A DNA stretch of 64,000 bases from assembly GCF_013415885.1 (NCBI RefSeq), contig NZ_CP058910.1, forward strand, positions 682,001 through 746,000, given 5' to 3'. The notes under the pieces were generated by a model. That model was not told where the DNA came from. It saw only the letters and a program-made list of their open reading frames with translations, and made no database searches. Position 1 is the stretch's first letter, and each line of letters starts with the position of its first letter. This document shows, in pieces, positions 2,172-37,206 of the stretch. A program made the translations under genes and the position numbers. Source of the DNA: Halosimplex rubrum. GTDB taxonomy: Archaea > Halobacteriota > Halobacteria > Halobacteriales > Haloarculaceae.

Positions 2172-2249
2172 TTATCGCTCGTCGATCGGGGGGTACGTCA
2201 GATCCTCGGGGCCGGTGTAGCGGGCCCGCGGGCGGATGAGGCGGTCGTG
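2172..2249 (-). pseudogene. Detached copy of the citrate synthase 3' end
   Basis: These 78 bases, read on the minus strand, encode the last 25 or so residues of citrate synthase a second time (RLIRPRARYTGPEDLTYPP) and end in TAA. The intact gene encodes the same stretch with Glu for Thr and Leu for Ile, and ends in TAG. I count about 15 base differences in 78, mostly synonymous, so the copy is diverged but carries the signature of a once-coding sequence. It has no start and is not in frame with the intact gene. It abuts the palindromic element at 2253-2375. Confidence 0.85.
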
Positions 2250-2252
2250 CCA

Positions 2253-2409
2253 CCACCTTTTTCTTCGACGGGTTTCCTCGCTCACTCGGCTCACGGCTTC
2301 GCCGTTCGCATCGAGGTCTCCCTTCGGTCGACCTCGCCCCGTTCGCTGCGGGAACCCGCCTCGAAAAAAAGGGGGCGAAAAGCGGCCGCTCACTCCGTTC
2401 GCGGCCGTG
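2253..2409. repeat. Palindromic intergenic element, copy A
   Basis: Lies between the true citrate synthase stop and its detached 3' copy. The left end CCACCTTTTTCTTCGACGGG (from 2253) pairs imperfectly with AACCCGCCTCGAAAAAAAGG near 2353-2373, giving long inverted ends. Inside are shorter palindromes, for example CGAGGTC/GACCTCG at about 2310-2334 and gcgaac/tgagcg-type arms. The T-rich strand after the citrate synthase stop could also end its transcription. It shares ends and internal style with the element at 33492-33550. No open frame in it looks like a gene. Confidence 0.7.
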
Positions 2410-3546
2410 CTATCGCTCGTCCAGCGGCGGGTACTCCAGATCCTCGGGACCGGTGTACCGCGCACGGGGACGGATCAGGCGGTTGTCCTCGACGTACTCG
2501 GCGGCGTGGGCGATCCAGCCGGCCGAGCGACTCATGGCGAAGATGGGGGTGTAGATGTCGACGGGGATACCCATCTGGTAGTACGTCGACGCCGAATAGA
2601 AGTCGACGTTCGGGGCCAGCCCCTTCTCGTCGGCCATGAACTGCTCGATCTTCGTGGAGTACTCGTACCACTTGGGGGTGCCGGCGGCCTCGCCGAGCTC
2701 CTGGGAGCGCTCGCCGAGGATCTTCGCGCGGGGGTCCTTGACGTTGTAGACGCGGTGACCGAACCCGGAGACGCGGCGGCCCTCCTCCAGGGCCTTCTCC
2801 GCCCAGCCGACGGGGTCGCGGTCGCTCTCGTCGACCTCCTCGAGCATCTCCATCACGTCCTGGTTGGCGCCGCCGTGGAGCGGGCCCTTCAGCGTGCCGA
2901 TGGCCGAGGTGACGGAGCTGTGCAGGTCCGAGAGCGTCGAGGCCGTGGTGATGGCGGAGAACGTCGAGGCGTTGAACCCGTGGTCGGCGTGCAGAACGAG
3001 CGCCATGTCGAACGTCTCGGCAAGCACCTCGTCGGGCTCCTCGCCGTTGAGCATGTAGAGGAAGTTCGCGGCGTGGGAGAGGTCCTCGCGGGGTTCGACG
3101 GGGTCGTCGCCGTCGCGCATCCGCGTGAACGCCGCGAGGATCGTGGGGATCTTGGCGGTGATGCGCCGCCCCTTGCGGAGCGTCGCCTCGCGGTCGGTGG
3201 CGGGCTCGTCGGCGTCGGGGTCGTACGCCGAGAGCATCGAGACCGCCGTCCGGAGCGCGGCCATCGGGTTCTCGTCGGCGGCGGCGAGCTGGCCGACCGT
3301 TTCGAGCACGTCCTCGTCGACCGAGCGCTCGGCGACCATCGAGTCGGTGAAGGCGTCGAGGCGGTCGGCGTCGGGCAACTCGCCGTGCCAGAGCAGGTGG
3401 ATGACTTCCTCGTAGCTCGCGTGTCTGGCGAGGTCCTCGATCGCGTAGCCGCGGTAGATGAGTCGCCCCTCGTCGCCGTCGATCTTGCTGAGATCGGACT
3501 CGGCGACGAGCACGCCCTCGAGGCCCTTCCGTAGCTCGTCGGTCAT
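2410..3546 (-). CDS. gltA: Citrate synthase
   Basis: Condenses acetyl-CoA and oxaloacetate to citrate, entering the TCA cycle. At 378 residues it matches the short archaeal and Gram-positive type. The catalytic His-His-Asp set is visible: H224 in LHGGAN, H264 in GFGHRVYN and D315 in NVDFYSAS, with the conserved H189 in ADHGFNAS. The start MTDELRKGLEG is the family-typical N-terminus. An AAAAGGG stretch about 25-31 bases upstream on the coding strand side could be the TATA element of a leaderless transcript. The stop is TAG, and the 3' end is repeated beyond a palindromic element at 2172-2249. Malate dehydrogenase of the same cycle is at 45426. Confidence 0.97.
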   Translation of the reverse strand: MTDELRKGLEGVLVAESDLSKIDGDEGRLIYRGYAIEDLARHASYEEVIHLLWHGELPDADRLDAFTDSMVAERSVDEDVLETVGQLAAADENPMAALRTAVSMLSAYDPDADEPATDREATLRKGRRITAKIPTILAAFTRMRDGDDPVEPREDLSHAANFLYMLNGEEPDEVLAETFDMALVLHADHGFNASTFSAITTASTLSDLHSSVTSAIGTLKGPLHGGANQDVMEMLEEVDESDRDPVGWAEKALEEGRRVSGFGHRVYNVKDPRAKILGERSQELGEAAGTPKWYEYSTKIEQFMADEKGLAPNVDFYSASTYYQMGIPVDIYTPIFAMSRSAGWIAHAAEYVEDNRLIRPRARYTGPEDLEYPPLDER

Positions 3547-3905: not shown

Positions 3906-4205
3906 TCACAGCCGCCGGGAGAGGCGGACGGCGCGGCCCAGCGTCAGGAGAAATGCGACGAGGCCGGCGGTCGACAGCGCGAGGACGAACCCGAGCCCGA
4001 CGTACAGCGCGGGCGAGCGCCGCGACCCCGGGAGGAGGACGAACAGGACGAACGCCGCGAGCGCGAGCGCGAGGCCGGCCGCGAGACCCCACTTGGCGTT
4101 ACGGCGGACGCGGAGCGCGGCGACGAAGGCGGCTCTGCCGCTGTCGGCGTCGGCGGCTTCGGGGACGGGGGCCGACTCGCCGCCGTCCCGTCGCTCGCTG
4201 GCCAT
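3906..4205 (-). CDS. Small conserved haloarchaeal two-TM membrane protein
   Basis: A 99-residue protein starting MASERRDGGE. The first third is acidic and cytoplasmic-looking. Residues from about 38 to 60 and 66 to 88 form two hydrophobic segments (WGLAAGLALALAAFVLFVLL and YVGLGFVLALSTAGLVAFLL), and a basic tail follows. The motif RRNAKWGLAAG before helix 1 looks family-specific. I do not know the function. It is divergent from the deacylase-like gene at 4344, and the intervening segment carries both promoters. The start is chosen because upstream extension gives low-quality sequence overlapping the neighbour's promoter. Confidence 0.75.
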   Translation of the reverse strand: MASERRDGGESAPVPEAADADSGRAAFVAALRVRRNAKWGLAAGLALALAAFVLFVLLPGSRRSPALYVGLGFVLALSTAGLVAFLLTLGRAVRLSRRL

Positions 4206-4343
4206 ATCCGTAGTTGGGCCACGACCGGCAAAGTCGCGTCGATCGACGGCCGTCGAGGCGGGGCGCGAGCGGAGGGCGCCGCCGGTCCCGACGGCCGGGA
4301 GACACCGAACCGCTAAAGAACGGGCGGTCCCGCAGTGTTGGTA

Positions 4344-5300
4344 ATGACGACGCTCGGTACGGCCCAGGCGGCCCCCGGCGAGATGGACACGGGGCGCCTG
4401 TCGGTCGGCGAGACGCGCGACGGGACCGAGGTGGGGCTCCCGGTCGCGGTCATCAACGGCGCCGACGACGGCGACACCCTCTACATGCAGGCGGCCAGCG
4501 ACGGCGACGAACTCAACGGCGTCGGCGTCCTCCAGCGGGTCGTCCCGCAGCTCGACCCCGCCGAGCTGTCGGGGACGATCCTCGTCGTCGGCATCGTCAA
4601 CTACCACGCCTTCCAGGTGGCCGAACACCGCAACCCCATCGACGACACCAAGACCAACCGCGCCTACCCCGGCGACGAGACGGGCACCTCCACCGAACGC
4701 ATCGCCGCCGCGACGTTCGGCGCCGCCCGCCGCGCCGACCTGATCCTCGACCTCCATCAGGGGTCGACCTCCCGGATGATCGACGAGTGTCGCGTCCGCT
4801 GTGGCAAACGCCACCGCCTCCACGACGCCTGCCTCGAACTCGCGAAGGTCTTCGACTGCGGCTACGTCTTAGACCAGAAGGGCCCCGACGGCCAGCTCGC
4901 CCGCGCCGCCCCCGACGAGGGCATCCCCACCATCGACCCCGAGTTAGGGGGGTGTGTCGGCTGGGACGAGCAGTCCATCCGGGCCGGCGTCGAGGGCGTG
5001 TTCAACGTCCTCTCCTATTACGGATTCGCCGACGGAACCGTCGACACGAGCCCGCAGACCCGCGCCAGCGGCTTCGAGCAGTACGGCGCCCCCGCCGGCG
5101 GCCTCGTCTCGCTGAAACCCGACCTGGGCCAGCGCGTCGCCCGGGGCGACACCCTCTTCGAGGTCACCGACCCCTTCGGCGGCGTCAAGGAGACCGTCAC
5201 CGCCGACTCCTCGGGCGTCTTCTGGCGCGCCCGCCGGCTCCCCCAGGTCGCCACCGGCGAGTACGTCTGCTCGGTCGGGACGGACGTGGATTCGTACTGA
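4344..5300 (+). CDS. AstE/AspA-type (succinylglutamate desuccinylase/aspartoacylase) hydrolase
   Basis: A zinc-dependent deacylase-like protein of the M14-related AstE/AspA group, 318 residues from ATG 4344 (a GTG two codons earlier is possible). The family layout is clear: the metal motif around residues 53-56, then KTNRAYPGD (substrate-binding Asn-Arg), then DLHQGS with H138. The first ligand motif reads SDGDE instead of the usual HGxE, so the first His is replaced by Asp. A biotinyl/lipoyl-like beta segment near the C-terminus (GGLVSLKPDLGQRVARGD) is typical of the AspA-like subgroup. The substrate is unknown. It stands alone between divergent and convergent neighbours. Confidence 0.85.
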   Translation: MTTLGTAQAAPGEMDTGRLSVGETRDGTEVGLPVAVINGADDGDTLYMQAASDGDELNGVGVLQRVVPQLDPAELSGTILVVGIVNYHAFQVAEHRNPIDDTKTNRAYPGDETGTSTERIAAATFGAARRADLILDLHQGSTSRMIDECRVRCGKRHRLHDACLELAKVFDCGYVLDQKGPDGQLARAAPDEGIPTIDPELGGCVGWDEQSIRAGVEGVFNVLSYYGFADGTVDTSPQTRASGFEQYGAPAGGLVSLKPDLGQRVARGDTLFEVTDPFGGVKETVTADSSGVFWRARRLPQVATGEYVCSVGTDVDSY

Positions 5301-31163: not shown

Positions 31164-33422
31164 ATGTCCACAGTGGCGAGTGCGTCAGACCCGGATCCGG
31201 ACTACCTGCGCTTTTTCCCCTACGACCAGCCCTACGACCACCAGACGGAGGCGATGGGGACCATCTACGACGCGCTCGACGAGCGGCGGAACGTCCTCTT
31301 CGAGGGCGCGACGGGGACGGGCAAGACCCTCTCGGCGCTGGCGCCCGCGCTGGAGTACGCCCGCGAGACGGGCAAGACGGTCGTCATCACGACCAACGTC
31401 CACCAGCAGATGCGCCAGTTCGTCCGCGAAGCGGCCGCTATCACCGACCAGGAGCCCATCCGCGCCGTCGTCTTCCAGGGGAAGGCGTCGATGTGTCACA
31501 TCGACGTGGGCTACGAGGAGTGTCAGGCGCTGCGCGATACGACCCGGGAACTCGTCGACGCCGAGGAGAACCGCGCCGAACTGGAGGACCAGCAGCGCGC
31601 GCTGCTGGAGGAGAGCCAGGACGGCAGCGCCGAGGCGGCCGACGCCCGCGGCGCGGTGATGGACGAACTCGAGTCGGTCGAGGCGGAGATCGACCAACTG
31701 CGCGAGGAACGGAACGTCTGCGACCACTACTACCGGAACCTGACCGCCGACACCGACGCCTTCTACGGGTGGCTCTACGACGACGTGCGCACGCCCGAGG
31801 ACGTGTACGGCTACGCCGAACGGGAGGGCATGTGCGGCTACGAACTCCTCAAGGAGGGCATGGAGGGGGTCGATCTCGTGGTCTGCAACTATCACCACCT
31901 GCTCGACTCGATGATCCGCGAGCAGTTCTTCCGGTGGCTGGGCCGCGACCCGGAGGACGTGATCGCCGTCTTCGACGAGGCCCACAACGTCGAGGACGCC
32001 GCCCGCGACCACGCCCGGCGCACGCTCACCGAGACGACGCTGGACCAGGCGGTCGAGGAGCTAGAGAGCGCCGAGGACCCCCGCGCCGAGGGGGCGCTGA
32101 ACGTCCTCGACACCTTCCGGCGGGCGCTGGTCGACGCCTACGACGAGGCCTTCGGCTTCGGCGAGCGCGAGGGGGTCGGCGAGGACTGGTACGACCTGTC
32201 GATCGACAACGAGGACGCCCGCGACGAGTTGACCCTCGCCTTTCTACAGAACTACTCCGGACCGGGCTTTCACGAGGAACTCGACCGGACGCTGGACCTG
32301 GCGCGGGAACTCGACCAGTCCTACGAGGAGGCCTACAAGAACGGGGAGACGACCACGCGCCAGGAGTGCCAGACGCTGCAGGCCGCCACCTTCGTCGAGG
32401 CGTGGCTCGACGAGTCGGCCGCCGAGGGGCAGTACCCGGTCGTGAGCGTCCGCCGCGCCGAGGAGGGCGGGCCGCGGGAGGCCGGCGAGATCTACGGCCG
32501 CGCGGAGCTGTACACCTGCATCCCGAGTCAGGTGACCGCCGATCTGTTCGGCGACCTGCACGCGGGCGTGCTGATGAGCGCGACGCTGCGGCCGTTCGAC
32601 GTGACCGAGGACGTGCTCGGCCTCGACGACCCGGAGACGCTGGCCTACGGCCCGCAGTTCCCCGAGGAGCGCCGGCGGACCTACGCCGTCGACGGGCCGG
32701 CCCTGTTCGCCAGCAAGCGCGACGACATGCAGGTCCAATCGACCGTCGCCGGCGCGCTGGAGGACGCCGCGCGGTTCACGCCCGGCAACACCCTGGCCTT
32801 CTTCCCGAGTTACGCCGAGGCCGAGCGCTACCACCAGCGCGTCGACACCGGCGGCGCGACCTACCTCGACCGCCCGGGCACCTCGGCCAAGGAGTTGCGC
32901 GAGCGGTTCACCGACGACGACGACGCCGTCCTGTTCACGTCGCTGTGGGGCACCCTCGCGGAAGGGGTGAGCTTCGACGGCGACGACGCCCGGACGGTCG
33001 CCGTCGTCGGCGTCCCCTACCCTCACCTCGACGACCGCATGGAGGCCGTTCAGGAGGCCTACGACGCAGAGTTCGGTGAGGACGGGGACGCGGGTCGCGG
33101 CGGCTCGGGGTCGGGCGGCGGCCGGGACGACGGCGAGGGCGCCGGCTGGCGCTACGCCGTCGAGATCCCCACCGTCAGAAAGACCCGCCAGGCGCTCGGC
33201 CGCGTCGTCCGCTCGCCCGAGGACTTCGGCGCCCGGATCCTGCTCGACCGGCGCTACACCGAGCGCTCGGAGGTCGAGATGTCCGACTACTCCGTCCGCA
33301 CCACCTTCCCGCCCGAGGAGCGCCGCGAGATGGTCGACGTCGAGCCCGGGAAGCTGAAGTTCGCGCTGCTGAACTTCTATCGGGACGTGGACGGCTACGA
33401 CGGCGAGCCGCCGCGACCGTAG
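31164..33422 (+). CDS. XPD/Rad3-like ATP-dependent DNA helicase with Fe-S cluster
   Basis: A 752-residue superfamily 2 helicase. Walker A is GATGTGKT (48-55) and the DEAH box is at 271-274 in VFDEAHNVED. The four Fe-S cysteines of XPD/FANCJ-type helicases are present: C111 (MCHID), C120 (EECQA), C186 (NVCDHY) and C224 (GMCGYE). The C-terminal RecA-like lobe holds VLMSATLRPFD, LFTSLWGTLAEGVSF and QALGRVVRSPEDFG with the motif VI arginine. It unwinds 5'-3' and probably acts in repair. The stop is TAG, and its last 13 codons reappear downstream at 33557-33598 beyond a palindromic element. Confidence 0.95.
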   Translation: MSTVASASDPDPDYLRFFPYDQPYDHQTEAMGTIYDALDERRNVLFEGATGTGKTLSALAPALEYARETGKTVVITTNVHQQMRQFVREAAAITDQEPIRAVVFQGKASMCHIDVGYEECQALRDTTRELVDAEENRAELEDQQRALLEESQDGSAEAADARGAVMDELESVEAEIDQLREERNVCDHYYRNLTADTDAFYGWLYDDVRTPEDVYGYAEREGMCGYELLKEGMEGVDLVVCNYHHLLDSMIREQFFRWLGRDPEDVIAVFDEAHNVEDAARDHARRTLTETTLDQAVEELESAEDPRAEGALNVLDTFRRALVDAYDEAFGFGEREGVGEDWYDLSIDNEDARDELTLAFLQNYSGPGFHEELDRTLDLARELDQSYEEAYKNGETTTRQECQTLQAATFVEAWLDESAAEGQYPVVSVRRAEEGGPREAGEIYGRAELYTCIPSQVTADLFGDLHAGVLMSATLRPFDVTEDVLGLDDPETLAYGPQFPEERRRTYAVDGPALFASKRDDMQVQSTVAGALEDAARFTPGNTLAFFPSYAEAERYHQRVDTGGATYLDRPGTSAKELRERFTDDDDAVLFTSLWGTLAEGVSFDGDDARTVAVVGVPYPHLDDRMEAVQEAYDAEFGEDGDAGRGGSGSGGGRDDGEGAGWRYAVEIPTVRKTRQALGRVVRSPEDFGARILLDRRYTERSEVEMSDYSVRTTFPPEERREMVDVEPGKLKFALLNFYRDVDGYDGEPPRP

Positions 33423-33437
33423 GGAGACACCTCGTCC

Positions 33438-33556
33438 GCGAACGAAGCGAGCGGTTCGCCGCGCCGAGCGGAGCGAGACGCGGCCTTTTCGCCCACGTTT
33501 TTCGCCGAGTGGTCCCGAGCGAAGCGAGCGACCCCCGGCGAAAAAGGTGGTCTCAT
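33438..33556. repeat. Palindromic intergenic element, copy B
   Basis: Between the helicase stop and its detached 3' copy. It contains a short palindrome GCGAAC (33438-33443) / GTTCGC (33454-33459). A larger hairpin follows, with CCCACGTTTTTCGCCG (from 33492) pairing with CGGCGAAAAAGGTGG (to 33550) over a loop of gagcgaagcgagcg style. The ends match the ends of copy A at 2253-2375 (CCACCTTTTTC and GAAAAAAAGGGGG). The T-rich arm could also serve as a transcription terminator of the helicase gene. Confidence 0.7.
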
Positions 33557-33598
33557 CAGGACGTGGACGGCTACGACGGCGAGCCGCCGCGGCCGTAA
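33557..33598 (+). pseudogene. Detached copy of the helicase 3' end
   Basis: 42 bases encode QDVDGYDGEPPRP and TAA, against RDVDGYDGEPPRP and TAG at the true end (33381-33422). There are only three base differences: one missense, one synonymous, and the stop exchange. There is no start and the frame is not continuous with the gene. It follows GGCGAAAAAGGTGGT directly, as the citrate synthase copy does. Confidence 0.88.
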
Positions 33599-36503: not shown

Positions 36504-36800
36504 ATGAGCTCCTCCGGGATCGGATCGCGGCTGGTGACGGCCGTCAGCGCGCACGTGTTGCGGGTCGTCGGCTGCCTCATGATCGCCCTCTCGGTCGGTA
36601 TCGCCGCGGCCAGCGTCTCCACGGACTACGGGCTGGGCGGCGCCAACGCGACCGGTGTGGCCGCGGCCTACACCGCCAACGCGGGAGCGGTCGCCGGCCT
36701 CGTCGAGTTCGCCGCCGCCCATCCGGCCTACCCCGTCGCGGTGCTGGTCGGACTGGTTCTCGTCGCCGCCGGCGATGAAGCGCCGCTGATCGGGAGCTAA
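36504..36800 (+). CDS. Small membrane protein, first of a tandem paralogous pair
   Basis: A 98-residue protein starting MSSSGIGSRLVTAVSAHV. A hydrophobic segment at about 20-40 (VLRVVGCLMIALSVGIAAASV) and another at 75-95 (YPVAVLVGLVLVAAGDEA) flank a glycine/asparagine-rich centre. The motif VEFAAAHPAYPVA is shared with the next gene. Family not recognised; probably a lineage-specific or haloarchaeal membrane family. The tandem arrangement and shared order of segments show origin by duplication. Confidence 0.7.
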   Translation: MSSSGIGSRLVTAVSAHVLRVVGCLMIALSVGIAAASVSTDYGLGGANATGVAAAYTANAGAVAGLVEFAAAHPAYPVAVLVGLVLVAAGDEAPLIGS

Positions 36801-36909: not shown

Positions 36910-37206
36910 ATGGCGAGACTCGGTGGCGAAGCCGGAACGGGAACGGTGCTCGACGGGCAGACGCTTCGGATCGCCGGGCTGGTGACGATCGTCTGTTCGG
37001 CGACCGTCACCGCCGCGAGTATCGGCACGTCCCACGGGCTCTCGATCCACAGCCAGTCGACGGCGAACACCGCGCCGGTCGTCGCCGACGTGGGCGCCGC
37101 GACGGCGCTGGTCGAGTTCGCCGCCGCACACCCCGCGTATCCGGTGGCCGCGCTGGTCGGTCTCGTCCTCGTCGTCGCCGGCGAGGAGACGCCGCTGCTC
37201 GGCTGA
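36910..37206 (+). CDS. Small membrane protein, second of the tandem pair
   Basis: A 98-residue paralogue of the gene at 36504, starting MARLGGEAGTGTVLDGQT. Both have the same length and layout: N-terminal hydrophobic segment (LRIAGLVTIVCSATVTAAS), a polar centre with two TA/NA turns, then VEFAAAHPAYPVAALVGLVLVVAGEE. ATG 36910 follows a GATTTATGCGG stretch that may be a TATA element about 30 bases upstream. I chose this start over an upstream in-frame ATG at 36817, which would add 31 residues with no counterpart in the paralogue. Confidence 0.7.
   Translation: MARLGGEAGTGTVLDGQTLRIAGLVTIVCSATVTAASIGTSHGLSIHSQSTANTAPVVADVGAATALVEFAAAHPAYPVAALVGLVLVVAGEETPLLG

Follow-up and report, generated by a model that had tools for sequence, protein, structure and literature searches.

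The citrate synthase gene (gltA) in the window, by which we mean the whole 64 kb stretch of Halosimplex rubrum DNA analysed here, raises the question of how a housekeeping gene comes to have its own 3' end a second time, behind inserted palindromic DNA, as a preliminary description of the sequence had proposed. The locus comprises the following features.

2410 to 3546, minus strand: citrate synthase gene (ORF of 378 aa; Pfam PF00285, Citrate_synt, E 7.6e-134)
2411 to 2486, minus strand: in-use copy of the gene 3' end, with TAG at 2412-2410 (direct repeat, 83%)
2383 to 2409, minus strand: gene-proximal terminator-like hairpin, followed by CTTTTCG (sequence and fold)
2253 to 2375, minus strand: E, a hairpin element running from CCCCCTTTTTTTC to GAAAAAGGTGG, with its right tip at 2263-2253 (fold, motif and family anatomy)
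2249 to 2252, minus strand: junction signature, TGG (AGG in the gene) plus an inserted C (sequence)
2172 to 2252, minus strand: displaced copy of the citrate synthase 3' end, with TAA at 2174-2172 (repeat and sequence)

The second copy of the last ~25 codons is indeed present: a repeat search aligned 2173-2248 with 2411-2486 at 83% identity over 76 nt, the in-use tail being the last 25 codons of the gene, and the intact end reads TAG and the detached end TAA, as described. The 162 bp between the two copies fold into hairpin structure (DNA MFE -44.7, z -3.3), so that palindromy holds, not in the form of a single palindrome but of two hairpins (2409-2383 and 2375-2253). The copy is not a chance similarity: only three ungapped direct repeats 60-600 nt apart reach a score of at least 24 in the whole window, and two of these are tail-E-tail cases, one at gltA and one at the helicase gene described below. 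The third (36702-36793 and 37111-37202, 409 nt apart) is unlinked to E and probably lies inside coding sequence. Over the last 24 codons, stop included, 13 of the 72 bases are not shared by the two tails; they fall into 11 codons, of which 8 are synonymous, 2 change an amino acid (E/T and L/I) and one is the TAG/TAA pair. Under random substitution so few replacements are expected with P about 1e-4, in keeping with the claim that the divergence is nearly all synonymous and of the kind seen between coding alleles.

The gltA case is one of a dispersed family of gene-end duplications. BLAST of the 161-bp segment against its own genome gave 38 matches, and among 30 fetched loci every one that contains GAAAAAGGTGG has a flanking direct repeat. 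Searches for this motif returned 14 occurrences in the own genome (reversed control: 3) and 97 in eight genomes of the genus (control: 14), where all 96 distinct sites were read. We scored as a tail copy any copy of upstream sequence that starts no more than 13 nt from the motif with a score of at least 21; the 95th percentile of 480 random anchor points was 13, some anchors, presumed to lie in arrays or in the copies themselves, scoring up to 252. By this measure a copy of the tail of the upstream gene follows GAAAAAGGTGG at 53 of the 96 sites in the eight genomes, at 10 of 14 in the own genome alone, at 24 of 67 more sites, taken from another seven genomes and from three loci, and at 77 of 163 sites overall. 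At least 28 different, unrelated genes are hit, the targets in the own genome being, besides citrate synthase and as we take them, those for diphthine ligase, a methyltransferase, EtfA, PheT, NuoI, a VOC protein, thiolase, ArgF and a DinG-like helicase. Presence across congeners is patchy ("absent" in these comparisons meaning absence of the exact motif family only), and the junction is mostly the same for a given gene. A survey of 116 genomes from the order showed the motif to be frequent in several Haloarculaceae genera, some having 11-25 copies, to be rare or missing in genera g4 and g8, and to be scattered elsewhere.

The breadth of targets bears directly on one explanation, that the locus is the remnant of a tyrosine-integrase element that entered the 3' end of citrate synthase and brought a replacement for it. 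The model for this is e14/icd, an integrative element restoring the 3' end of a protein gene; there, as here, the in-use end comes from the insert and the old end is displaced, and the arrangement recurs at gltA in Haloarcula, Halomicroarcula and Halosimplex. Those recurrent gltA tails had suggested an integrase island in citrate synthase, which was dropped as a candidate when the same hairpin was found with the tails of other genes. E differs from insertions of the e14/icd type in having no integrase, no common core and many targets: the same E beside at least 28 unrelated genes implies that the sites share no att core, the 162 bp that separate the copies could not accommodate an integrase gene, no transposase or integrase was found accompanying E, and the gltA tail pattern occurred in 0 viral contigs and found no match among plasmids and phages. 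The breadth of targets contradicts the integrase reading, to which we attach hardly any credence. The term "citrate synthase" occurs 0 times in the searchable part of an archaeal integrase review (PMC8371274).

A second member of the family lies in the same window, at 33376-33598, behind an ORF that we take to encode a DinG/XPD-like helicase.

31164 to 33422, plus strand: presumed DinG/XPD-like helicase gene (ORF of 752 aa; orthologs in the genus)
33493 to 33550, plus strand: E of the helicase case, from CCACGTTTTTC to GAAAAAGGTGG (motif and repeat search)
33551 to 33598, plus strand: displaced copy of the helicase 3' end, comprising TCT+C, the tail and TAA (41 of 43 nt identical)

Here, and in congener G005, the sequence past the displaced stop codon continues like that of the element-free congener G003. 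At the helicase loci of G004 and G007 (L256 and L260) the downstream gene order is unlike that of other congeners, a presumably phosphatase-like ORF next to the helicase replacing the ORF that follows it in the window.

Across sites E is 50-133 nt long (median 69) and begins with CCAC or CCAT and a T-run and ends with an A-run and GGTGG; a further T-run stands just 5' of it at 112 sites. Some of the left hairpins start with CGTCC directly after the stop codon; REP/RAYT repeats are characterised by a GTAG or CGTC tag and a RAYT transposase. The junction on the right is built in a constant way: GGTGG is followed by three bases that repeat those preceding that point in the intact gene, then by one or two extra bases, then by the tail. 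At 67 testable sites (10 of 77 rows, with offsets outside 3-13, were omitted) a perfect match of the three bases was found at a shift of +1 in 31 and of +2 in 11, and at six other shifts in 0-4. The extra bases in 28 genes were C (15), T (4), CC (3), CT (3), CA (1), A (1) and G (1). The consensus of the target site is weak, consisting of a purine after the three bases (27 of 28). In the ten genes under comparison some 9-40 codons separate the junction point from the stop. In two instances a single gene has two alternative points of attachment for this E tip (L245, which is pheT of G006, versus L169 and L222; L242 versus L189 and L209), each alternative joint lying within a short internal repeat, as if moved by homology. 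At L180 (G005) two E-like hairpins stand in direct tandem, 56 nt apart, with no gene tail between them.

Short, non-coding and with inverted terminal ends, E resembles a miniature transposable element (MITE), and a serious rival explanation, if a rather improbable one, is that it is such an element, mobilised by a transposase whose target duplications are very long and variable, the tail being one of them. The complementary ends, CCAC..TTTTT and AAAAAGGTGG, were both found at 122 of the 163 sites and paired in 122 of these 122, pairing being partly built into the search. Often the displaced copy goes no further than the stop codon; the copies that adjoin E on both sides in L054 and L318 include the terminator, as a target duplication would. 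The direct repeats, 23 to 227 nt long, do not have the short fixed length of MITE target duplications and are instead long and variable, as with IS1634-type elements. The portion of the review on IS1549/IS1634 available to us gives direct repeats of 8-514 bp, proposes no mechanistic model, and describes the family as frequent in Euryarchaeota (PMC2266710). Variable, long duplications beside an element with inverted ends are thus common to both systems; unlike IS1549/IS1634 (PMC2266710, same portion), E is non-coding, and the tail copies come from the upstream gene and keep its orientation. In the own genome no inverted CCACSTTTTTC pair 1-2.5 kb apart, as expected of an autonomous partner, was seen. 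A search of the eight genomes of the genus for the IS1634 family, the one transposase family covered, yielded a transposase above the NF033559 cut-off in 0 of 8, and none of 11 weaker hits had exact E-like ends. Against transposition, moreover, most loci have a right copy that ends close to the stop codon and a left one that continues into the hairpins, the 1-2 extra bases go unexplained, and the tails differ as coding sequences do.

Next, we asked which of the two ends is native, comparing carriers with element-free congeners for ten identified genes, automatic frame choice being unreliable for some rows of the wider set (thiolase, with no element-free congener, gave no pair). Sequence downstream of the displaced copy matched that of the empty site above the 99% null in 26 of 91 comparisons, and sequence downstream of the in-use copy did so in 6 of 91; of these six, two involve G002, which keeps a degenerate E, and two pairs are significant on both sides. 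The displaced end thus appears to occupy the ancestral position, a placement that fits insertion of a tail with E before the native tail and insertion of E with a tail copy after the native stop alike. For citrate synthase itself, the downstream sequence of the window locus alone was significant against 0 of 5 empty sites, the best score of 34 equalling the 99% value of the null. Congener G001 has the same gltA arrangement with the same junction as the window, and its displaced-end downstream is significant against the element-free G003 and G006; congener G005 has a decayed gltA tail remnant without E, with which the displaced end and downstream sequence of the window could be aligned by eye. 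Taking the displaced gltA end as native therefore rests on G001 and on the G005 remnant, and not on the window locus itself.

Outside the genus, tail-E-tail at gltA was found in Haloarcula salina (L054), Har. vallismortis (L056) and Halomicroarcula SYNS111 (L096), the last with a tandem of three tails and two E. Among 80 loci kept from the contig search, a second tail behind gltA was present in L050, L054, L056, L096 and L101. In L101, from Halorhabdus salina, the citrate synthase end is duplicated (4030-4943) around about 700 bp without E; the insert contains a partner ORF and a small ORF with HIFEDGNKR, presumably a Doc/Fic-like motif, and is an independent gene-end-restoring insertion at citrate synthase.

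The differences between tails are of the coding type over the ten genes taken together, 38 pairs showing 67 synonymous and 29 replacement codons where 74 replacements are expected at random. Identity between tails is 0.951 (n=40) inside one genome and 0.89 (68 pairs) from one genome to another, and most pairs are 95-100% identical, which makes it unnecessary to invoke a foreign donor for these. Either the in-use ends were imported as alleles or conversion keeps the pairs alike, and recombination is required in both cases. Few pairs are as little homogenised as that of gltA in the window, whose in-use end comes nearest to congener G005 (89%) and whose displaced end has no match above 82%, no donor species for the latter having been found among the seven congeners. 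Of the proposal that recombination introduced a foreign gene end along with its element, leaving the old one behind, the displaced native end, the element-borne end and the allele-like divergence are upheld, and the singular event and the specific foreign donor are not, gltA being one case of many and no such donor having been found.

A function of the displaced tail itself, for example as a regulatory RNA in the 3'UTR or as a decoy kept by selection, would be compatible with the recurrence of the same genes and junctions across congeners and with the likeness of tails within genomes. We nevertheless consider it very improbable: presence is patchy, the G005 remnant differs from the tail by 6 replacements and 1 synonymous change, as expected of decaying sequence, and no Rfam family was found in the region (an Rfam scan of the stretch gave one sub-threshold match, elsewhere).

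The account that we tentatively favour, at something short of an even chance, is that an E-bearing gene end recombined into an E-free allele and left the old end behind E. Homology is evident on one side, where the left tail is continuous with the gene, and the right junction (GGTGG plus 3+1 nt) has no long homology. An allele of the gene end with its terminator and E would enter a chromosome without E; the left crossover would occur by homology inside the gene, and on the right the E tip, GAAAAAGGTGG, would be joined without long homology to the resident gene before its stop. The gene would thereby keep an intact frame with a new end, the old end staying behind E, and later recombination between the tails could homogenise them, build tandem arrays or remove E scarlessly. 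We infer from the sequences this combination of homology and tip-joining, with E as an active partner, perhaps because the base of its hairpin breaks, and with later homogenisation.

Several observations fit recombination of an E-bearing end poorly. Simple illegitimate joining does not predict the three-base repeat and the extra C, and the constant 3+1 nt joint suggests an enzyme; the tails that are 95-100% identical need no foreign donor. In addition, argF has a tail-E against a convergent stop in G005 and tail-E-tail-E in G000 and G003, which looks like a local tandem duplication of tail and E. Such a duplication could be a general explanation, replication slipping from the E tip to the tail and duplicating tail, terminator and E, with the second E lost later; it would account for a junction that lies always exactly at the hairpin end and for arrays such as those at L221, L208, L203, L228 and L174 (arrays with three tails and two E exist). 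The last tail is usually without E, however, and yet joins native downstream sequence as in element-free relatives, so that an exact secondary deletion would be needed, and the synonymous excess between tails also speaks against it. We judge tandem duplication unlikely as the origin of the pattern.

A further difficulty for recombination of E-bearing ends comes from the 86 sites without a tail copy. At 31 of these the stop codon of a convergent ORF lies 0-5 nt from the E tip (3 of 86 for a control anchor), which is too precise for random joining, and at 10 of 86 ARAGORN detected a tRNA on the opposite strand with its 3' end toward E. A gap of 1-2 nt separates the E tip from the 3' end of a convergent tRNA in L177, L207, L231, L244, L268 and L279 (ARAGORN), and likewise in L165, L216 and L224, where the tRNA was read by eye. 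At such sites E also forms a terminator-like, bidirectional spacer that separates two gene ends. A bolder reading, possible in our view though on the doubtful side, is that E is a gene-free mobile hairpin that travels within gene endings, using the host tail as a homology arm and a dedicated reaction at its tip (the source of the three repeated bases and the one or two extra ones, mostly C), and leaving essential genes unbroken.

In the open-licence PMC literature we found no description of gene-end duplications of this kind. The nearest parallel is with the orphan 3' ends of Rhs/CDI and T6SS effector loci (Vibrio), for which the part of the source available to us proposes homology-facilitated illegitimate recombination (PMC5361080). 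There too a new 3' end is acquired through one-sided homology, the old module is left downstream and arrays arise; as far as that part goes, those ends encode different toxins or immunity genes (PMC5361080), whereas the ends found with E are alleles belonging to housekeeping genes, joined on the non-homologous side invariably at one hairpin tip that has the 3+1 nt signature. Transposase-free repeats of Haloquadratum, namely MITEs, PATEs and SMRs, are also comparable; in the accessible portion of PMC3119063, SMRs are, like E, short (about 110 bp), with inverted ends and no transposase, and their mobilisation is called enigmatic. Unlike E, which is accompanied by duplicated gene tails at 77 of 163 sites, SMRs make no target duplications and target other mobile elements (PMC3119063, same portion). 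Tagged REPs are treated in PMC3733652, and the portions of this paper and of PMC3119063 at hand make no mention of duplicated gene ends.

The recurrence behind dozens of unrelated housekeeping genes points to an unrecognised form of gene-end swapping in which the old end is left in place. If this is borne out, numerous housekeeping genes of haloarchaea have exchanged their 3' ends for new ones that arrived with a hairpin, and in the displaced ends one can read a record of recombination between alleles, one that marks the sites where a C-terminus and terminator were exchanged and that would explain puzzling partial copies of genes in the genomes concerned. The 3+1 nt junction, being constant, offers a direct handle on the putative activity, and the family as a whole provides a testable system for palindromes that provoke one-sided recombination in polyploid archaea.
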